Of a stretch of 41,783 nucleotides of DNA, positions 231 through 11,069 are shown piece after piece (the stretch's first letter is position 1; each line of letters starts with the position of its first letter). Location: assembly GCA_947485745.1 (NCBI GenBank), contig CANKQY010000001.1, positions 64,742-106,524 on the forward strand, written 5' to 3'. The notes under the pieces were generated by a model, which was not told the DNA's origin, ran no database searches, and saw only the letters and a program-made list of their open reading frames with translations. The DNA is from Bacteroidota bacterium (lineage in GTDB: Bacteria; Bacteroidota; Bacteroidia; UKL13-3). Both the position numbers and the translations under genes were made by a program.

Positions 231-932
231 TTATTTGCCAGCTGGTGTTTCACCAGCAGCATTTTTAATTTCACCTTGCTTATATATTTCAGGGTTCAAA
301 AACTCATCGTATTTGGCACGCATGTCTTCAGTTTCAGATTGCAATTCAAGTTTCATTTCATCTAAAATCGCTTGTTGAGCCATTGCGTAACTATATGCCA
401 ATCTAATTTGAATTTCTACTTGTTTACCTTTTCTACGCATAATCTTGCTTAAAGGCAAAACACGTTTTAATTTTTTGCTCACTTTGTTGGTAGCAACTTG
501 TAAAGCCTTAGAAATAGAAGCAGCCGATTTCGCATCCAAACGATTATTTCCTTGCTCAAGTTCAACTACTGAACGCATTTGTGTTTCTAATAAGCCAACT
601 AAACTAAGTTTTGCCAATTCTGTAGCTTGCATTTCTGCAACAGATTGAAACTCCGCACCAGACTCCCCGTTTGAGATAATCCACTTTGGAACTCCCTCTC
701 CATCCACCTCAACTTCTTTGGCCCAAGCATTATTAAATTGCTGACTCATAGGCATCTCGCCTGGTATATTTGTCCAACCATCTTTCTCGAGTGCTTTAAC
801 ATATTTTTTTGTATCGCGTGTAACATTTACAAATTTAAATTTTTTGGCTTTAATAGATTTTGAATCTTGAGCCGTTAGCATAAATGCCCCAAACATGAGT
901 GCAATTACAATTAAGTGTTTACTGTTTTTCAT
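231..932 (-). CDS. Small secreted LPP20-like protein, last gene of the caspase operon
   Basis: 233 residues from the ATG at 930-932. A longer frame exists upstream, but it overlaps the preceding gene and would put 29 charged residues before the signal peptide, so the internal Met is preferred. Residues 1-22 are a signal peptide ending in TAQ. Then comes a ~60-residue Lys-rich part containing KALEKDGWTNIPGE. The rest is Ala-rich and helical (residues ~95-200), of the kind seen in LPP20/FlgT-N-like proteins, where an Ala-rich helix carries paired A..A positions. The C-terminus is polar. No catalytic motif is visible. It is 13 bp downstream of the large T9SS protein gene and is followed by the terminator at 183-217. 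The family resemblance is an inference; the function is unknown. Confidence 0.8.
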   Translation of the reverse strand: MKNSKHLIVIALMFGAFMLTAQDSKSIKAKKFKFVNVTRDTKKYVKALEKDGWTNIPGEMPMSQQFNNAWAKEVEVDGEGVPKWIISNGESGAEFQSVAEMQATELAKLSLVGLLETQMRSVVELEQGNNRLDAKSAASISKALQVATNKVSKKLKRVLPLSKIMRRKGKQVEIQIRLAYSYAMAQQAILDEMKLELQSETEDMRAKYDEFLNPEIYKQGEIKNAAGETPAGK

Positions 933-945
933 TCTTTTTTTTGTT

Positions 946-3900
946 TTAATGGTTAATGGAAATTTTATATGTTTTTGTTGTTTGTTTTGATTCAATTGAT
1001 AATAGGTAAATTCCAGCAATCATTTCTGTACTTGTAAAATTTATTTCCTTTGTTTGACCGCTAGCAATACTACCTATGCTGTTCACGCTAATTGTTTTTC
1101 CTAACATATCCGTGATGCGTAATTGTACCTCATCTAAATTTGCTAATGGCATAAATGAAAGCGTAAATTGGTCGTTTGCAGGTTGTGGAAATATCTTTAT
1201 GTTGCTTAACAAAAGCTCCTTATCCATCCCAGCTGCAACGCCTGTATAAACGTTCTTACTGTAGATTGCTCCCGTACCGCAGCCATTTGCTCCCCTTACG
1301 GTAATTACACCACTATTTTGCCCTACTAAAACAGATATTTCATTTTGGGTTGAACCCGACATGATTGTCCAACCTGATGGTACAGTCCATACATAACTTG
1401 TCCCTGACAACACTGAAACCTTATATTTTCGGATGGTAAATGATTTAACATACTGCTCTCCTTCCCATGAAGTAATATTTGGCAATTGAGATGCATCTAT
1501 GGTTAAAGCTGCAGCAATTCCTTTACAATAGCCATTATTGGCACTTACATTAATTACTCCGGTTTGACCTGCTATCAAAATACTGGTGCCTTGCCCGGTA
1601 GGTGCACTAATGGTCCAACCAACAGGAGAAGTCCACAAATAAGAAATTGCACCGGGCACTGCTGCAACGGTGAAAGTAGCATTAGCGTTGATACAAGGAT
1701 TTGCATTTCCAGAAATAACAGGTTGTGCTGGAGGAGGAACAACAGTACTTATAGCTAAAACTCTTTCTGCACTTAAACATGCGCCGTTTATTGCTTTAAC
1801 CGTTATTTGTCCATTGGTATTATTTGGAACAACCTTAATACTAGTGGTATTTTGTCCACTTGTAAATGTCCAAGCTGTTGGGATGGTCCATGTATAATTT
1901 AATGCGTTTGTAACAGAGCTGATACTAAAATCATTAACCACACCATCACAAACAATACTGCTACCTGCAATTGCTCCGGGCGTTGGAGGTAAATTTCCAT
2001 TAACTGATGTTGCAAAATTTCTAGCTACGCTTCCACATCCATTATTATTTGCAATTACCGTAATATCCCCACTGATAGCAATACTGTTGGGTCTAGCATT
2101 TATAAAAGTATCTGAACCTCCGGAGAGAATTACCCAACCAGTTGGAACAGCCCAAGTGTAGCTAGACGCAGTTGAGATTCTTGGAATGTAAAATGGGTAA
2201 CTTGTATTGATACAAACCAAATTATTCCCTGTGATTGGAGCAGGTTGCGCAGGGGTTTGATTGACTATAAATCCTTGTTTTCTGGGAACCGAGTTACAAG
2301 AACCATTACTTGCCACCACTAATAAAGTATCAGAATTATTGTTTGGCGTAACATTGATGGTTGTGGTGGTAGAAGTGCCAGTCCAACCAGCTGGAACTGT
2401 CCAAATATAAGAGGTAGCTCCACTTACAGCTGCAATGGTGAGAGCAATTTGTTTGCCTCCGCATATTGCTCCTGAATAACCAATTGAACCTGGTTGTTGG
2501 GGCGCAGGGGTTACTGTAGTAATTGATAAAGTTCTTGCAGTACTTGCACATGCGCCATTATTTGCCAACACACTAATAGTACCAGTTGAACTTCCTGCAA
2601 CCACATTTATTGAATTCCCTGTACTATTTCCATTAAATGTCCATCCAACTGGAATTGACCAAGTATAAGAATTTGCGTTGGTTACTGAGGCAATAGAATA
2701 GGATTGATTGCTATTTGCACACATAGTAACGTTACCTGCTATGGTTCCAGGTTGCGTTGGCACAATCGAGCTTCCCGCAATAGTATAAGCAAAATTAGGG
2801 CTACTACAACTTCCATTATTGGCTTTAACAGATAATACCAATGAGGTGGCTAAAGATGCACCAGTATTAACCCCAATAGTATTGGTTGAAGTACCACTTA
2901 TCTGTGTAAAACCTGTTGGCAAAGTCCAAGTATAATTAATGGCATTGGGAACAGGAGGTGTTGTAAAACTATAACTGCTATTTATGCATACTTGCGTTGC
3001 ACCTGTAATTTGGGAAGGTGCAGCTGGCGTTGCTACTACATTAACTGCCAAGGTTCTGGGTATGCCTTCACAGGAGGTACTAGTAGAATTTGATGGAAAT
3101 ACGGAAATTGAGCCAGAAGTAGAACCAACAGTTACCGAAATAGAATTAGTATTTTGTCCACTATTAATCGTCCAGTCAGTAGGTAAAACCCAACGATAAT
3201 TAATTCCAGTAACATTGGTTACAGAATAGGTTAAAGTTGACCCAGAACATGGACCTATGCTACCTGTAATAACGGAAGGAGTCGATGGTATGCTAGCGGG
3301 TGCTAAAAATGCTTGGGTAAGAATTGGCCCAGCACCACAAACTGTATTGGTTCCCCTTACTGTTACATTTCCTGCAACAGCAGTTGCACTTGGGGTAACT
3401 GTAATTTGCCTATTGGTTATTGGTGTTCCAATTGTCCAACCTGTTGGAAAAGTCCAAGTGTAGGTATTGGCAAAGGGCAAAGAATCTACAGAAAAGACTG
3501 TAGCCACCGTTTTACAAGCGGGGTTAGGTCCAAGTACCACAGCTGGACTAATTGGCGCTCTAGAAGCATCTACACGCTTTTTAACGTAGGCACTAGGGCA
3601 AGAGGTTGTTGTATTGATAGCACGTACAAAAATACTATCACCCCCTGTTGCGGGCGTTGTAAGTGCATTTACCAATATAGAATTGGAACTGGGACTTCCT
3701 CCCCAAGAAATTGGTAAAACCCATTGGTAAGTATTACCCGCAACTAAAGTAACGGAATAGGTGGAAGCTACTCCATAGCAAGGGGTAGCAGAACCGGTAA
3801 TGGCACTTGGGGTAGGATTGGTAATTACGGTAACGGCCAAACTAGCGGCGGTAGTGCTATCCCCGCATCCATTGTAGCCCTTCACAGTTACGGCACCTGT

Positions 3901-6216
3901 TGAGTTAGGTATTACTGTAACAATAGTTAATCCCTGCCCAGATTGAATAACCCAGCCCGCTGGCACCGCCCAATTATATCCAATAGCATTTGAAACAGCA
4001 GCAACTGCAAAAGATTTGCTTAAACCGCTACAGGTATTTGCTGTCCCGATAGGAGAAATGGCACCAATGGTTCCAATTGAAGCACAATCAAACATTTTTA
4101 CTAAAAAGGCATTTTGAATACCTCCTAAACTGGGTTGATGAGACCCTAAAGTAGAAATATTAATCGGACTATAAGTTTCTCCTGCCAAATAAATGGTTCC
4201 ATTTGACTTAATGCTACAAACCATCGCACCTTCATCATTAACTCCACCATAATAGGAGCCATATTGTCTAATTCCCGCAGAATTAAACCTTGAAAAAAAT
4301 CCATCCCGACCACCCATGTATGTCGTTTGATATGCATCAATGGTGCTTATATTTGTCGTAGACTCAGTAATGCCAGAAATATAAACATTCCCTATAGGAT
4401 CAGATTTAACACAAAACGACTCCTCGAATTGTGTACCGCCATAATAAGTGCCCCATTGTCTAACTCCTAAAGTATTTAACTTAACTAAAAAGACATCAGC
4501 GAGCCCCCCTAATATAGTTTGACTTGCGCCAATACTAGCAATTGCATTTAAACTTTCTGTATGCCCTAAAAACAAAATATTTCCATTTAAATCTACTGTA
4601 CAAGAAGTTGTAATCTCGGAAGCAGTGCCTCCATAATAAGTTGACCATTGTCGAGCTCCACTTGAATTAAATTTTATAATAATAGCATCATAATTTGTAG
4701 AAAGAACTGCTTGATGGGCACCAACTGTAGATAGTCCAGCAGATTCCGTTGTACCTATAAGAAAAACATTTCCAGAATTATCAACTGCACAACTACCAAG
4801 TCCGTCAGAATTTGCTCCTCCATAATAAGTAGCCCATAAACGAACACCATTTGAATTAAATTTGGCTAAAAATAAATCAAAATTACCACCTGCATAACTA
4901 GCTTGAAAAGAGCCAATAGTTGATATATTGGTAGTTGAGTTAGTTTCTCCAGAAATAATAATATTTCCGCTCGGATCAGCAGCTATGTTAGGTCTTTGAT
5001 CTGTGCCTAGCCCAGCATAATAAGTACCCCAAATTCTTGTTCCATTTGTGTTAAATTTTACTAAAAATAAGTCATTTAAACCTCCAGGTAAAATTTGATG
5101 AGAGCCTGTCGTTGATATATTATTTGTACTAGTAGTCTGGCCAACTAAATAAATATTACCATTAATATCAGCAACACATCTTGAACCAAATTCATCACCT
5201 GCACCACCATAATATGTACCCCATTGTCTAATACCTAAGGCATCAAATTTGGCTAAACCAAAATCGTAACTTCCAGCTAATGAAATTTGAAACGCTCCAC
5301 TTGTTGCAATAGATCCCGAACTATTAGTCCTAACTGACAAGTATACGTTACCACTCGCATCAATATCACAACTTTCACCTCTACTAGTAATTGTTCCCCC
5401 ATAATAAGTACCCCAAAGCCTACTTGGTATTGGATCAATTATCAAAGTACTATTACTTGAAATTTTTGTTATGGTAGTAAACCCAAAAACACCCTTTTCA
5501 ATCTGCCTATATTCAACATTAACCGGAGTGTTTTTATCCTCCTCCATCCAACTCAATGGAATATCTTCCTCTAATTTTCCTGCATCAACATTTAACTCAA
5601 TTTTGTTTTGAACCAACTTGCTTGGAGCACCCAAGTATTTCATTTGAATCAATTGATAATCGGCACCAGGATGTACAATAAAATTATACTTAAATCCCTT
5701 TTCTGCGTCAATTAAATATTCAATGTCAATTCCAGGATATACATCCTTAACCAATACACTTTTATAACTATGTACATTTAAAACTCCTTCAGGTGAGGTT
5801 GGCACATTGTAGTAATTGACAAAATCGGTTGAGGCTTGATTAGCCTCTACTTTAGGCTGTTTGCTGGCATTTACAAATTCTATATCTACCCTGTGATACT
5901 TGTATAAATAATCAAAACTATCTGCCTTTGTTTGATGGATTGTGCTATTTTTACTGATTTCATTAATAGCTTTTAATCTTTTTTCTAAAGTATAAGTATC
6001 ATAACTAAATCCAGTATTCCTAATTTGCACATTCAATCCATTGCCATTCAAAAGGTATTTTACAGCTGCATTGGGTATGCCGTTTTGATCCAAAATCTGA
6101 CCTTTATTTTCCATAAAAGCTTCCGCATTTTTATGCGTTAGATTTTTAGGTACTTCGATTGAAAAAACTGTATTCGATAATAATACAAATAGTAAGAGCT
6201 TAATTATTTTCTTCAT
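946..6216 (-). CDS. Giant T9SS-secreted protein with SBBP and PKD-like repeats
   Basis: 1756 residues. Order of parts: signal peptide (1-~20); an N-terminal region of ~250 residues containing MENKGQILDQNG and DVYPGIDIEYL, typical of the domain that precedes SBBP repeats in Bacteroidota (DUF7948 type); seven SBBP beta-propeller repeats at about residues 265-710, each marked by a W/Y-x-T/S-YY-G/A-G core (first RLWGTYYGG, last RQYGSYYGG); a Cys-containing linker; about eleven PKD-like/Ig-like modules at ~715-1640, each with a Y-x-W-x-x-P-x-G/x-W/F core (for example YTWTIPTAW) and paired Cys; then a T9SS type A sorting domain over the last ~85 residues (IKIFPQPANDQFTLSF near its start, GIYLLSIESK near its end). 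The sorting domain predicts export by the type IX system and attachment to the cell surface or release. It is fifth of six co-directional genes, 11 bp after the kelch lipoprotein gene. A surface adhesin or matrix role is an inference. Confidence 0.93.
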   Translation of the reverse strand: MKKIIKLLLFVLLSNTVFSIEVPKNLTHKNAEAFMENKGQILDQNGIPNAAVKYLLNGNGLNVQIRNTGFSYDTYTLEKRLKAINEISKNSTIHQTKADSFDYLYKYHRVDIEFVNASKQPKVEANQASTDFVNYYNVPTSPEGVLNVHSYKSVLVKDVYPGIDIEYLIDAEKGFKYNFIVHPGADYQLIQMKYLGAPSKLVQNKIELNVDAGKLEEDIPLSWMEEDKNTPVNVEYRQIEKGVFGFTTITKISSNSTLIIDPIPSRLWGTYYGGTITSRGESCDIDASGNVYLSVRTNSSGSIATSGAFQISLAGSYDFGLAKFDALGIRQWGTYYGGAGDEFGSRCVADINGNIYLVGQTTSTNNISTTGSHQILPGGLNDLFLVKFNTNGTRIWGTYYAGLGTDQRPNIAADPSGNIIISGETNSTTNISTIGSFQASYAGGNFDLFLAKFNSNGVRLWATYYGGANSDGLGSCAVDNSGNVFLIGTTESAGLSTVGAHQAVLSTNYDAIIIKFNSSGARQWSTYYGGTASEITTSCTVDLNGNILFLGHTESLNAIASIGASQTILGGLADVFLVKLNTLGVRQWGTYYGGTQFEESFCVKSDPIGNVYISGITESTTNISTIDAYQTTYMGGRDGFFSRFNSAGIRQYGSYYGGVNDEGAMVCSIKSNGTIYLAGETYSPINISTLGSHQPSLGGIQNAFLVKMFDCASIGTIGAISPIGTANTCSGLSKSFAVAAVSNAIGYNWAVPAGWVIQSGQGLTIVTVIPNSTGAVTVKGYNGCGDSTTAASLAVTVITNPTPSAITGSATPCYGVASTYSVTLVAGNTYQWVLPISWGGSPSSNSILVNALTTPATGGDSIFVRAINTTTSCPSAYVKKRVDASRAPISPAVVLGPNPACKTVATVFSVDSLPFANTYTWTFPTGWTIGTPITNRQITVTPSATAVAGNVTVRGTNTVCGAGPILTQAFLAPASIPSTPSVITGSIGPCSGSTLTYSVTNVTGINYRWVLPTDWTINSGQNTNSISVTVGSTSGSISVFPSNSTSTSCEGIPRTLAVNVVATPAAPSQITGATQVCINSSYSFTTPPVPNAINYTWTLPTGFTQISGTSTNTIGVNTGASLATSLVLSVKANNGSCSSPNFAYTIAGSSIVPTQPGTIAGNVTMCANSNQSYSIASVTNANSYTWSIPVGWTFNGNSTGNSINVVAGSSTGTISVLANNGACASTARTLSITTVTPAPQQPGSIGYSGAICGGKQIALTIAAVSGATSYIWTVPAGWTGTSTTTTINVTPNNNSDTLLVVASNGSCNSVPRKQGFIVNQTPAQPAPITGNNLVCINTSYPFYIPRISTASSYTWAVPTGWVILSGGSDTFINARPNSIAISGDITVIANNNGCGSVARNFATSVNGNLPPTPGAIAGSSIVCDGVVNDFSISSVTNALNYTWTIPTAWTFTSGQNTTSIKVVPNNTNGQITVKAINGACLSAERVLAISTVVPPPAQPVISGNANPCINANATFTVAAVPGAISYLWTSPVGWTISAPTGQGTSILIAGQTGVINVSANNGYCKGIAAALTIDASQLPNITSWEGEQYVKSFTIRKYKVSVLSGTSYVWTVPSGWTIMSGSTQNEISVLVGQNSGVITVRGANGCGTGAIYSKNVYTGVAAGMDKELLLSNIKIFPQPANDQFTLSFMPLANLDEVQLRITDMLGKTISVNSIGSIASGQTKEINFTSTEMIAGIYLLSIESKQTTKTYKISINH

Positions 6217-6227
6217 TGCTATTTGCC

Positions 6228-7223
6228 TTATTTTGAAATCCAGAAATCGTTTAAATCTGCAGCGTTATTACCACAGCCCACATAAGCCCTGCCCTTTTGA
6301 GTGAAGGCTACAGCGCCATACCTACCAGAGCTTTGAATACTTGGTGCTGACTTCCATTTACCTGTGGTAGGGTTATATTCATAAAAGTCGGAAAGAATAC
6401 CAGTATAATTATTCCATCCTGTTCCAATATAACCTCTTTTTTCGAAGGCAAAGGCAACTGCATCATCTCTTTCAACTCCAGGTATATTGTTAATTTGCAT
6501 CCAAGAATCACTTGAAGGCGTATATTCCCAAAAGTCATTCAAGTAATTTACCCCGTTATATCCAGTGCCCACATAAGCTCTGCCATTTAGCACAAATGCA
6601 CAGGCATCTGTTCTTCCTGATCCTGGTAAATCAGCTATTTTTCTCCATACAAAAGTGCTAGCATCCATTTCATAGAAGTCGCGCAAGTAACTAGTGCCAT
6701 TTGTTCCCAGGCCAATATATGCTTTGTTACCAATAACAAAAGAAACTGCATTAGACCTTGCCGCTCCTGTGAAAAATGTATTCGACCAAATTAGACTAGA
6801 ATTGTGGTTATAAATTAAATTAGAAAAACCAGTAGTGCCTATTCCCAAACCATAAAATAGATTTGGCCCTAGCACAAATGAAACTGCCCCTGATCTATTA
6901 CTTGGCAATTGGTAATTTTGTAATTGAAAATTACTCTTTTGGGCATCAAACTTCCAAACCTGTAAGTTTTCTGGGGCATTATAATTTCCTGAACCAACCA
7001 CAAAAGCCAAAGTGTCTCCGAAAGCCGCAAGTGCATTGCTTCTTGTTGTAAAAATATTGGAGCCAGATAAAGCGTTAGTGCTTGTATAGTTTAGTTGACT
7101 CCATGCCGCAACCCGGTCCATATTAGACAAGCCAATAGGTTGAACAACTTCATCCTTGCAAGACAAAACCAACACACTTAAAAATAACAAACTTAAACCA
7201 AGTGTAAAATATTTTTTCATCAT
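6228..7223 (-). CDS. Kelch-repeat lipoprotein with surface-export signal
   Basis: 331 residues, beginning Met-Met-Lys-Lys; either Met can start. The lipobox is LVLSC with the lipid-accepting Cys at residue 22. The next residues are Lys-Asp-Glu, matching the K-(D/E)2 lipoprotein export signal described for Capnocytophaga and related Bacteroidota, which predicts display on the outer face of the outer membrane. The mature part has about six kelch-like blades, seen as repeats of G-x-Y/F-I/V-G-x-G followed by a DFW/DFYE-Y segment (LNDFWEYTPSSDSW, LSDFYEYNPTTGKW), the galactose-oxidase-like propeller pattern. It ends on a blade (LNDFWISK) that presumably closes the propeller. It is 3 bp downstream of the barrel protein gene. 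Propeller fold and surface location are well supported; the ligand is unknown. Confidence 0.88.
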   Translation of the reverse strand: MMKKYFTLGLSLLFLSVLVLSCKDEVVQPIGLSNMDRVAAWSQLNYTSTNALSGSNIFTTRSNALAAFGDTLAFVVGSGNYNAPENLQVWKFDAQKSNFQLQNYQLPSNRSGAVSFVLGPNLFYGLGIGTTGFSNLIYNHNSSLIWSNTFFTGAARSNAVSFVIGNKAYIGLGTNGTSYLRDFYEMDASTFVWRKIADLPGSGRTDACAFVLNGRAYVGTGYNGVNYLNDFWEYTPSSDSWMQINNIPGVERDDAVAFAFEKRGYIGTGWNNYTGILSDFYEYNPTTGKWKSAPSIQSSGRYGAVAFTQKGRAYVGCGNNAADLNDFWISK

Positions 7224-7226
7224 ACA

Positions 7227-8102
7227 TTAAAATTTATACCCCAAACCTGTTGAAAAAGTCCAATACCCAAAATTAATATTTTGTACCCCAAATGAAACTG
7301 GATATTTATTTTTAATAAAATAAATCAATCCAAACTCCGTTGCTAACCCTATATAACTATTATCGGCAACTAATACATAACCACTCTTATCTGGCGCATC
7401 ATCGGCAGAAAAACTTTTATAATCCCAATAACGTCTATCCATGCCAAATCCTAACCCTGCGTAACAAAAAATACTTGGTTTAATTTTCTTCAATAAACCA
7501 CCAGTTACAAATAAACTCGACTTCTTATCTTTTTCACCAATCACCCAATAGCCATCTCCGCTGTAATTAGTCAATCCCGTTCTATCGGCCTTATAATCTG
7601 CCCGGTGAAAGCCTATATTTGTTTGAATTTTTCCGTAACCACCTTTGTATTTGCGCACACCATACATAAAACCCAATGGTGCAGAAGGGGTAAATTGATA
7701 CATCCAAAATCTAGTTGGTTCAACGGGGATTTTTTGCGTTTCAATCCTAACTTGGAAAGCAACTTTTCCAACCAATTCATCCACATCTTTATAGATATCC
7801 CATGTAATATGTAACTTACCAGTAGGCAACAATTTTAATTGATTAACATCCCCAGTAACATACTTTAATGGACCTATAAATGTAGCTCCGCCATCAAGGC
7901 TCAACCAAAGTGAGGAAGAATAATTAAGCTCATCACTTACCGGCGAAATATGATAGCTAACATCAATCTTAGTTTGATCAGCAGACAATGTAAATTTAAC
8001 GTTTGTGGCTTTTTGCGCAGCTAATGGATTTATGCAACAAATAGCAAAAAACAAAAATAAACAGCGGGGAACAAATGAAATATATTGTAAATTTTTATTC
8101 AT
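7227..8102 (-). CDS. Secreted protein with N-terminal beta-sandwich and C-terminal outer-membrane barrel-like region
   Basis: 291 residues. A signal peptide ends at LAAQ (residue ~29). Residues ~32-125 look like a single beta-sandwich (NVKFTLSADQTKIDVSYHI; LWLSLDGGATFIGPL; HITWDIYKDVDEL), a pattern common in Bacteroidota exported proteins. Residues ~140-291 alternate aromatic and Gly residues in short strands and end in an aromatic C-terminal strand (FSTGLGYKF), typical of small outer-membrane beta-barrels. It lies between the caspase gene (21 bp upstream) and the kelch lipoprotein gene (3 bp downstream). A role as outer-membrane partner of those proteins is inferred from operon position only. 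Confidence 0.78.
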   Translation of the reverse strand: MNKNLQYISFVPRCLFLFFAICCINPLAAQKATNVKFTLSADQTKIDVSYHISPVSDELNYSSSLWLSLDGGATFIGPLKYVTGDVNQLKLLPTGKLHITWDIYKDVDELVGKVAFQVRIETQKIPVEPTRFWMYQFTPSAPLGFMYGVRKYKGGYGKIQTNIGFHRADYKADRTGLTNYSGDGYWVIGEKDKKSSLFVTGGLLKKIKPSIFCYAGLGFGMDRRYWDYKSFSADDAPDKSGYVLVADNSYIGLATEFGLIYFIKNKYPVSFGVQNINFGYWTFSTGLGYKF

Positions 8103-8123
8103 TTTTATTAGTCTAATTTTTAA

Positions 8124-9893
8124 TTAATATTCGGTTAGTACCATGCCCGGTGCTCCAAAAAATAGAGGTGTTTGAGAGCTCCCAGAAGATAGTTTTTTAG
8201 CCGCAACATTTACATTAAGTACCAAATAGTTTTGCAACTCCTCTACTGTAATTTTTTTATCCTTATTGGTATCAGCCTCACCCTGCAATCCCAAGCATAA
8301 GAAATAAGTATATAGTCCAGACTCCGAGGCAGGATTGCCTAAAGAAGTTTCATCATTGGAGGAGGAGGAAAATACCCTAAAATTAGGATTGGTTTCCCAT
8401 GGCCTTACGTTTGCATCTTTAACCTTAATGCCCAGTGCTTTGGTACCAGTTAAATTTTCGTTGGCTCTTGTTGAACCACTGAAACAGGCATCCATTATTA
8501 CCGTTACACTTTTGGCATTTAATTTATTCAACGATTCATAAAAATTATTGATGCTATAACCACCCTCTTTTAATAAATTTATTGATCCATCAGAAGGGAA
8601 AAGATATACCTCATCTCCATTCCTATCAGGAACTCCATGACCAGAATAATAAACAAACAAATCAGTTTTGCCTGGGTCAATCATATTGGTTAGCTTACCA
8701 ATACTTGGATCAAAAGTACTTTTAAAAAACAAGCCACTCACTTGCTGATTTGTGAAGGTAATTACCTGTTCAACCCCAAGTGTAAGTTTAAAATATTTTT
8801 CAATAATTTCAGCGTCGTGGGCAGCAAATGGTGCTTTAGGCACATTGGTGTAATTTTCAACGCCAATTACAATTCCAATAGATTTATTCCTTTTAACTTT
8901 TCCTAATGCCGGTGATTCAATGTTTTTTACACTGCTGTTGTTATTAGTAAATTTATCAGATTTATACTCATATCTTGCAGTCTGCTTTTGAATTTGAGCC
9001 ATATCAGCCTTTACAGACAGCACTGCAGGTTTTGGCACTCTTTTTCCTAACTCAAGTGGTAATTGAAATTCTTTTATATTCCCGTAATTCTTTTTCTCCG
9101 TTACTGTTAAAAATAAAGGCAATTTTCCGATAACATTTACGCGTTTATTGGGGCTAATAGTTACCCAAATTTCTTTTACTTCACCGACCTTAAAATCACC
9201 AAGATCTCCAATGGCACTATGAAAATCGTTCACATAAATATTACTATCAGTTGATACTAACTTATAAGAGACTCCTAAAGCCAAATTCTGACCAAAATTA
9301 TGAATAATTAACTTGGCTCTAATTTGCTCACCAGCTTGTAAATTTCCATCCTTAATAACTGAACCCGTTCCTTCTCCTTGATCATATATATCCATACCAG
9401 CAAAAACTAACTTTGATGGTATATACTGATAAGTATTTAAATTTAGTGTGGCTTGATCCATATCAAAACCAAAATGTTCGGTGATACTAATATCAATTTT
9501 ATGCTCGTTGGTTTTAATGAAAAACCCCGCATTAATTTTCATTTCTACAACCTTGGTCTCATTTGGCCTAATTAATTTAATTAACTTACTAGATTCAATA
9601 TATAATTCAGGATCAGAAACATTTGATTTTAAACTTATTTGTAAGCCTTGAGCTGGACCACTTCCATCGTTTCTAATTTTAAGGATCAACTTCGAATTCT
9701 CCTCTGCTTCTAATATGTCATTATCATTGTCATCTACATATTGTAGTTCCACAAAAATATTTGGTGGCAAACCTCTAATATAAGGCCTACTCAAATTTAA
9801 ATCTACTGTTTTGCTTGCTCCACTGGATTGGGCATTAATAAATGATGAAACAGAAATATTTAATGCCAAAAAAAAGTAAATTATTTTTTTCAT
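8124..9893 (-). CDS. Secreted caspase-like (peptidase C14) protein
   Basis: 589 residues. Signal peptide 1-21 ends INAQ. Two beta-sandwich regions of CARDB/NPCBM-like type cover ~35-280, each introduced by an acidic loop: VDDNDNDILEAEEN near residue 53 and DGNLQAGEQ near 180. A linker (~285-340) precedes a C14 caspase fold at ~340-589. Catalytic His419 lies in FVYYSGHGVPDRNGDE and Cys470 in VTVIMDACFSGSTR, both in the canonical caspase context. DTNKDKKITVEE after the core fits the EF-hand loop spacing (D1, N3, D5, E12), so calcium dependence, as in metacaspases, is plausible. The dyad is intact, so an active protease is expected; as a member of clan CD, Arg/Lys/Asp P1 preference cannot be read from the sequence. 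It is second gene in the operon, 11 bp after the DUF4384-like gene. The substrate is unknown. Confidence 0.93.
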   Translation of the reverse strand: MKKIIYFFLALNISVSSFINAQSSGASKTVDLNLSRPYIRGLPPNIFVELQYVDDNDNDILEAEENSKLILKIRNDGSGPAQGLQISLKSNVSDPELYIESSKLIKLIRPNETKVVEMKINAGFFIKTNEHKIDISITEHFGFDMDQATLNLNTYQYIPSKLVFAGMDIYDQGEGTGSVIKDGNLQAGEQIRAKLIIHNFGQNLALGVSYKLVSTDSNIYVNDFHSAIGDLGDFKVGEVKEIWVTISPNKRVNVIGKLPLFLTVTEKKNYGNIKEFQLPLELGKRVPKPAVLSVKADMAQIQKQTARYEYKSDKFTNNNSSVKNIESPALGKVKRNKSIGIVIGVENYTNVPKAPFAAHDAEIIEKYFKLTLGVEQVITFTNQQVSGLFFKSTFDPSIGKLTNMIDPGKTDLFVYYSGHGVPDRNGDEVYLFPSDGSINLLKEGGYSINNFYESLNKLNAKSVTVIMDACFSGSTRANENLTGTKALGIKVKDANVRPWETNPNFRVFSSSSNDETSLGNPASESGLYTYFLCLGLQGEADTNKDKKITVEELQNYLVLNVNVAAKKLSSGSSQTPLFFGAPGMVLTEY

Positions 9894-9904
9894 AGGTTCA
9901 TAAA

Positions 9905-10858
9905 TTAAGGGTTGATGCTTATAATGGTAGTTTTTAATTGAATATTAGGTTCGGCTCTTCTTATTTTTTGAAGCCATCTCTGAAAATCCTCACTTGGGAG
10001 ACTCAAAGGCTCCATAATGTTACTCGGTGTTACATTACTAGTTATAGTCAAAATAGGCTTGCCTATTTCACTTTTGGGATTAAATAAAACAAAAATCTTA
10101 CTCGTTTCGGGGCTAAGTGGATTTGAAAGGTAAAAAGTTAAATCATCCACCTTATGTGGCTCGATATTTTTTGCAGATTTTGGGTCAAAAAACAAAAAGG
10201 TTTGATCTGCTTTTACTGGGTAAGAAGAAATATTCTGGTCTGCCTTATAGGGCAACATTCTATAGGTTTTTTTTTCCTCTGGAACATCGCAATAAACTGA
10301 AATATAGCCATCTTCAGGCGCCGTAAATTCTAAATACACAGATTGTTTATTGTTAAAGCTTGTTGTTTTACATTCGGTTTTTGGGCAGGCCAACAAAGCA
10401 CTTTTAAATGTAATGGGCGTTTCCTTAATTTCTCTAATTTTTCCAAAAACCTCAACGGTCATATAGGTAACCCCATCCTCATAAATTTTGCTAATCTCTG
10501 GGGGTTTAATATCCTCTACCCACTCACCATTCACCATGGTTTCAGCCATCATATTAAAAACAACCTTGCTTTCGGCGCTAGAACCGGTTCTTTCGTTTTT
10601 TATATAGGTAGAATTTCCTTGAATAATGGTTTGCCCAAAGGCATTTTCTATCGCATTGATCTTTGCCCGTTCAATACAAATGCGCTCTGCTTCCTGCTCC
10701 GACATGCTTTTCTCAATAGGCATTTTATACTCACCGTGTTCGGAAACTACTTTCTGAGAAATAGCATTAAAAGGAATGAATATTAAAAAGAAAATAATTC
10801 CCTTACAAAAAGAAGTTATTGGTTCAAATCGAAAAATAAATAAATGAGTTAGCACCAA
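9905..10858 (-). CDS. Exported DUF4384/LPP20-like protein, first gene of the caspase operon
   Basis: 317 residues. The frame begins at a TTG (10856-10858), followed at once by GTG; no ATG lies upstream of the signal peptide, so the start is non-ATG or uncertain. The hydrophobic segment GIIFFLIFIPFNAISQ (residues ~20-35) is a signal peptide. Residues ~40-145 resemble an LPP20/FlgT-N-like domain (SEQEAERICIERAKINAIEN, then Met-rich and ending TVEVFGKIREIK). Residues ~165-270 look like a DUF4384 beta domain (YLEFTAPEDGYISVYCD; KTYRMLPYKAD; FVLFNPKSE). DUF4384 proteins commonly sit beside or fuse to caspase-family genes in Bacteroidota, which fits the neighbour at 8124-9893. The exact family names are from memory. 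Confidence 0.82.
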   Translation of the reverse strand: MVLTHLFIFRFEPITSFCKGIIFFLIFIPFNAISQKVVSEHGEYKMPIEKSMSEQEAERICIERAKINAIENAFGQTIIQGNSTYIKNERTGSSAESKVVFNMMAETMVNGEWVEDIKPPEISKIYEDGVTYMTVEVFGKIREIKETPITFKSALLACPKTECKTTSFNNKQSVYLEFTAPEDGYISVYCDVPEEKKTYRMLPYKADQNISSYPVKADQTFLFFDPKSAKNIEPHKVDDLTFYLSNPLSPETSKIFVLFNPKSEIGKPILTITSNVTPSNIMEPLSLPSEDFQRWLQKIRRAEPNIQLKTTIISINP

Positions 10859-11037
10859 AATGTCTTTTTTAAATTATTAATTAATAAATTTTGAATAGTA
10901 TATTTATTTTTTGAACCAATTAAATATGTGCAATGCTTACCTAATTCCATTTCTTTAAAATCATTCTTTATAAATATTGCATTTTCACCAAATGAATTTA
11001 AAGTGGAAAAGATTAATATAATAGGTAAACAATACAC
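10849..11037 (-). pseudogene. Short ORF, possible N-terminal remnant of a 7TM-DISM sensor protein
   Basis: The frame runs from GTG (11035-11037) to TAA (10849-10851), 62 codons, overlapping the TTG start of the next gene by 10 bp. It starts with a hydrophobic signal-like segment (LPIILIFSTLNSFGENA), followed by a segment containing ELGKHCTYLI and KYTIQNLLINN, which resembles the opening of the 7TMR-DISMED2 extracellular domain of membrane sensor proteins. It then stops, far short of such a protein. Downstream sequence in other frames does not continue the domain. It may be a truncated gene, a short secreted peptide, or a chance ORF. Confidence 0.35.
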
Positions 11038-11069
11038 AATTACAATAATCAGAATTATAAAAGGAATAA

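Follow-up and report, generated by a model that had tools for sequence, protein, structure and literature searches.

The window, a 41,783-nt stretch of a Bacteroidota genome, carries a six-gene operon of exported proteins that includes a caspase, and the question raised by this locus is which of these neighbours the caspase works with. An earlier note on this DNA had treated all six genes as one system built around the caspase. The operon itself proved real and conserved, but its centre lies with the caspase and the two end genes, A and F, and not with the surface proteins D and E. We read the locus as a conserved cell-envelope caspase module, in which a Sec-exported caspase is accompanied by two exported partners and is tied in this lineage to surface proteins (probability roughly 0.42). 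The co-conservation and adjacency of the module's genes, their export signals and the intact dyad motifs of the caspase are established at the level of sequence.

Organization of the operon and its products

The genes are lettered A to F following the direction of transcription. As had been described from the sequence, all six ORFs are co-directional, lying on the minus strand between positions 231 and 10858, with gaps of 11, 21, 3, 11 and 13 bp. The ORF of gene A spans 9905-10858, and its start is very probably the GTG at 10855, since an ortholog in a near relative (L031) has an ATG there; gene F starts at an inner ATG. The terminator proposed after F was recovered as a hairpin of 15 pairs with a T-run at 217-185 on the minus strand, while the hairpin/T-run scan overall gave 11 sites against 9.4 by chance, i.e., no excess. 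Export signals were likewise found on all six products: Sec-type N-termini, read by eye, on A, B, C, E and F, and a lipobox on D, with E also bearing a type IX secretion system (T9SS) tail.

Gene B (8124-9893, minus strand) encodes a Sec-exported C14 caspase of 589 aa, composed of a CARDB-like N-terminal region, in which Ca-type loops were recognized by eye, a linker and a caspase domain at residues 341-562. This domain holds His419 and Cys470, both of which are invariant in nine orthologs, and matches Pfam Peptidase_C14 at 7e-13 (49.2 bits against a cut-off of 21.4), so the assignment as an intact caspase stands. B is the sole caspase match in the window's genome; a sequence search of the PDB with the caspase profile returned no match. 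An EF-hand-like loop lies at residues 541-552, its D, N, D, K, I and E being invariant in the orthologs; the loop is absent from most A/F-linked caspases outside the window's clade. An Asp stands two residues ahead of the catalytic Cys (DAC), which is also the case in the metacaspase TbMCA2, and metacaspases combine a basic P1 with Ca2+ (PMC4357240). Given the D-A-C at the catalytic centre and the EF-hand-like loops, as in metacaspases, B probably cuts after Arg or Lys and is regulated by Ca2+.

The description of B as secreted holds as far as its Sec signal. Secretion beyond Sec export does not follow, because B has no lipobox and no sorting tail (no Por_Secre_tail match in Pfam or NCBIfam), and no signal supports the surface location once suggested for it. 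B is probably periplasmic, judging from the absence of other signals, and a periplasmic location shared by B, A and F is the simplest arrangement for a caspase lacking both a T9SS tail and a lipobox.

Gene A (9905-10855, minus strand) encodes an exported protein of about 316 aa with an N-terminal alpha/beta part and a C-terminal beta-sandwich, and gene F (231-932, minus strand) a small exported protein of 233 aa without a Pfam family; we regard both as core partners. The label DUF4384-like suits A only loosely: the window protein scores 13 bits, under the Pfam cut-off of 27, but weak similarity recurs in the family, 12 of whose 18 members match DUF4384 at E up to 1 (best 1.4e-5). An F homologue with a true DUF4384 domain fused to it also exists, in the cluster of genome G167. 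The two end genes had both been called LPP20-like. LPP20 was matched in Pfam by none of the 18 A-family and 12 F-family members, and comparison of the A and F profiles revealed neither resemblance nor homology; the underlying idea that the end genes go together was strikingly right. A fold search gave A no specific identity, returning only generic beta-sandwiches (RbmA, Z 8.2, 99 residues) and barely covering the N-terminal part; LPP20 was not among these matches, which is non-discriminating.

Gene C (7227-8102, minus strand) has no family in Pfam or NCBIfam, and its suspected barrel character was borne out by an AlphaFold model (pLDDT 82.5) in which an Ig-like domain (residues 32-124) precedes an 8-stranded outer-membrane barrel (127-291). 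The model matched OmpX (Z 15.4, rmsd 3.6, 131 residues), Ail (Z 14.0) and also OmpA. Both ends of an OmpX-type barrel are periplasmic, so the Ig-like domain of C should face the periplasm. C-type Ig domains occur beside caspases elsewhere, before an FGE-sulfatase-like domain (L107) or other domains (L087), and, as a weak match, within the G217 caspase itself, at its N-terminus; this recurrence beside and within caspases hints at a contact between C and B.

Gene D (6228-7223, minus strand) encodes a beta-propeller lipoprotein whose kelch repeats (Pfam) and lipobox agree with the initial description. Its surface-export signal is imperfect: the start, ...LSCKDE, contains K-(D/E)2 with the K at +2, one position early relative to C-X-K-(D/E)2 and its optimum of +3, and orthologs read CTKDP, CKKDP and CKEE. 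Gene E (946-6216, minus strand) is, as proposed, a T9SS cargo of 1756 residues, with DUF7948, an SBBP propeller, 11 PKD_6 stretches and a Por_Secre_tail that scores 37.8 bits against a cut-off of 27 in Pfam and 31.2 against 23 in NCBIfam. Between the window and genome G014, E is the fastest-evolving of the six genes (dN 0.24, against 0.05-0.10 for the others; dN/dS < 1 throughout), with the greatest divergence at residues 301-1000 and near-identity at the C-terminal end. Genome G016 carries two tandem copies of E (L047:9538-15855). The fast evolution, the divergent central region and the tandem copies fit a diversifying surface protein.

Distribution of the module across Bacteroidia

The earlier note had made its system view depend on co-occurrence of the six genes in related genomes, and such co-occurrence was found, in a fixed order. 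Five genomes have the complete order A-B-C-D-E-F (G000, which is the window's own, G014, G011, G010 and G062), and seven further copies are cut by contig ends (G003, G004, G012, G016, G017, G018 and L037, the last a MAG labelled Chlorobiota that reads X-A-B-C, X being a family described below). With identities of 39-92% between full-order copies, the order is conserved across genomes far beyond chance. The window and G014 are 84% identical in A, 92% in B, 90% in C, 88% in D, 69% in E and 83% in F. The more distant comparison, with G011, gives 65, 75, 59, 47, 43 and 81%, respectively, so that A, B and F are best preserved there and D and E least.

Profiles of A and F were then searched over 390 genomes of the class, which is the useful range because a phylum-wide sample for A gave only the window's genome. 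A was detected in 24 of the 390 genomes, F in 25 and both in 23, the positives falling in families f1, f2, f43, f64, f67, f74 and f76. The hypergeometric probability of the A and F co-occurrence is 9e-34, and that of strong caspase matches accompanying A/F is 5e-8; both values ignore the relatedness of the genomes, which makes the number of families the safer measure. A and F lie on one strand in all 28 loci compared and are near-adjacent in 24, the other four being separated only by B-E. Of the 26 genomes that have A or F, 21 also have a caspase in the same cluster; the remaining five are G176, G235, G289 (on a contig of 4.4 kb), G398 (where the neighbour is masked) and G219 (F but not A, in two copies). 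Since three of them, the f43 genomes G176, G235 and G289, keep F-A without a neighbouring caspase, and only F is present in G219, these two proteins may serve a separate function.

The arrangement of the module varies between lineages. The order is caspase-F-A-X in f2 and F-A-caspase in f43, f64 and f74; single genomes show F-A-small barrel-caspase (G282), C...F-X-caspase (G167) and caspase-F-A-C-type-caspase (G029, with three caspases in one cluster). G006 has A-F-small barrel-WD40 caspase, a cluster from which B, C, D and E are all missing, and G010, of the same genus, has both versions: A-B-C-D-E-F, followed by a small barrel and a WD40 caspase. The GHG and DAC motifs are kept in all 33 linked caspase domains. 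On a quick caspase tree, the linked enzymes belong to several subfamilies and not to one clade, and the linked label changes 8 times against a shuffled mean of 20, at least 6 changes being forced. The partnership has thus survived or re-formed through enzyme swaps, and a linkage kept despite enzyme exchange argues for a functional tie over mere shared descent. The kelch lipoprotein and the T9SS cargo, by contrast, are confined to the window's clade; as D and E are missing from every module read outside it, their gene content indicates that they are accessories.

Proposed function and alternative readings

We hypothesize that F, A and the caspase constitute a three-component envelope caspase system of an undescribed kind, with swappable caspases, lineage-specific surface modules and A and F as dedicated regulators or adaptors (probability about 0.45). 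In the periplasm, A and F would bind the caspase and gate or scaffold it, and the enzyme would cut after Arg or Lys under Ca2+ regulation. In the window's lineage the module would be coupled to the outer membrane, with the Ig-like domain of the C barrel facing the periplasm and D and E exported to the surface. A surface or envelope signal would lead the active caspase to cleave envelope clients, and surface structures would be changed or cleared as a result; E and D are candidate clients, in the window's clade only.

F and A might instead be a general envelope maintenance pair, to which the caspase as well as X, C, D and E are added optionally, as enzymes and cargo. The F-A linkage, tighter than that to the caspase, and the F homologue with a true DUF4384 domain speak for this, but a caspase is still clustered in those 21 of 26 genomes, and from several subfamilies at that, so we consider this reading unlikely. 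Less likely still is a surface-acting caspase that processes or releases cargo E, as a dedicated maturation protease in a role like that of PorU or the gingipains. In every complete copy from the window's clade, B, D and E do share an operon, and E, a long protein with many repeats, evolves fast (dN 0.24, compared with 0.05 for B). Caspase modules elsewhere, however, lack E and D; B has no T9SS tail; the window's genome holds about 100 T9SS tails but one caspase; and a paralogue of E, 45% identical, lies about 20 kb away, apart from the caspase. Cleavage of E by the caspase, as the earlier note had envisaged, is therefore unsupported, and so is the view of E or D as the natural partner of an enzyme that stays with A and F outside the clade, where D and E are absent. 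Least likely is a periplasmic self-harm or defence switch in which infection or envelope damage unleashes the caspase and the cell is killed or arrested: an association with cell death is common among bacterial caspases, and the patchy distribution, the partner swapping and the three caspases of the G029 cluster would suit it, but PADLOC gave a weak caspase match only, B scores 61.2 bits against the EACC1-associated caspase model NF047832 (NCBIfam), far under its cut-off of 140, there were no matching phage records, the products bear export signals, and known defence genes were not observed alongside.

The proposed system of caspase, A and F has partial counterparts. Orthocaspases, or prokaryotic metacaspases (C14), resemble B in the caspase domain, the His-Cys dyad and the DAC motif, and DUF4384 is a recorded accessory domain of cyanobacterial orthocaspases (PMC7475262). 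Unlike these, B is exported and has a CARDB-like N-terminus, the DUF4384-like part resides on the separate partner A, and there is a third partner, F. The survey of metacaspase operons by Asplund-Samuelsson et al. 2012 (PMC3501461) found many caspases to be operon-encoded, in some cases along with surface functions or OmpA; the passages covered here describe neither the A/F pair nor a T9SS cargo. The gingipains and PorU (C25) are also clan CD cysteine peptidases of T9SS bacteria, but B belongs to family C14 and is a protease without a T9SS tail. The Sulfurimonas plasmid pSULFM1 has a caspase beside an LPP20 lipoprotein, i.e., a caspase adjacent to a small exported protein, as here; neither the A nor the F profile, however, matches that LPP20 protein. 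A search of plasmids returned two remote caspases only. Within the literature covered, a partial body in which absence is no proof, no paper linked an operon for an exported caspase of Bacteroidota to DUF4384 or LPP20, and none described the F-A pair, the trio or the operon. The caspase chemistry of the module is likely ordinary, whereas the conserved F-A partner pair appears undescribed. A fixed pair that follows different caspases through several families offers a concrete handle on the regulation of envelope caspases and on their client.

Genes associated with the module

Several further genes were observed around the operon and its relatives. An exported, co-directional Trypsin_2 serine protease gene (208 aa) starts at window position 170, 60 bp past F and beyond the hairpin, and runs beyond the window edge; it is also the downstream neighbour of F in G014 and G012. 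On the other side, 5' of A, a reading of ~67 codons at 10859-11060 resembles, by eye, a signal peptide followed by the beginning of a 7TMR-DISMED2 sensor. A and the next gene are 379 bp apart in the window and about 100 bp apart in L031. The reading is possibly a gene remnant, although we are unsure of this.

Family X comprises exported transglutaminase-like proteins with Cys-His-Asp motifs (DCED...GH...CDP), three of whose eight members match Transglut_core. It adjoins the caspase module in f2, G167 and L037 (loci L082:5800-7329, L079:6370-7917, L075:9979-11322 and L037:1-1422); X is widespread, but in the window's genome it is unlinked to the module. Genome G146 has a second, divergent caspase-F-A cluster (L172:7582-10788) besides the one in L084, and the caspase gene of G050 is split by an in-frame TAG that separates the His half from the Cys half (L049:7798-10080). 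In G167, the cluster with the DUF4384-F fusion (L075:8982-14715) includes a sigma-like gene, with a weak match to Sigma70_r4_2, together with a small gene resembling zf-HC2 anti-sigma factors by eye.
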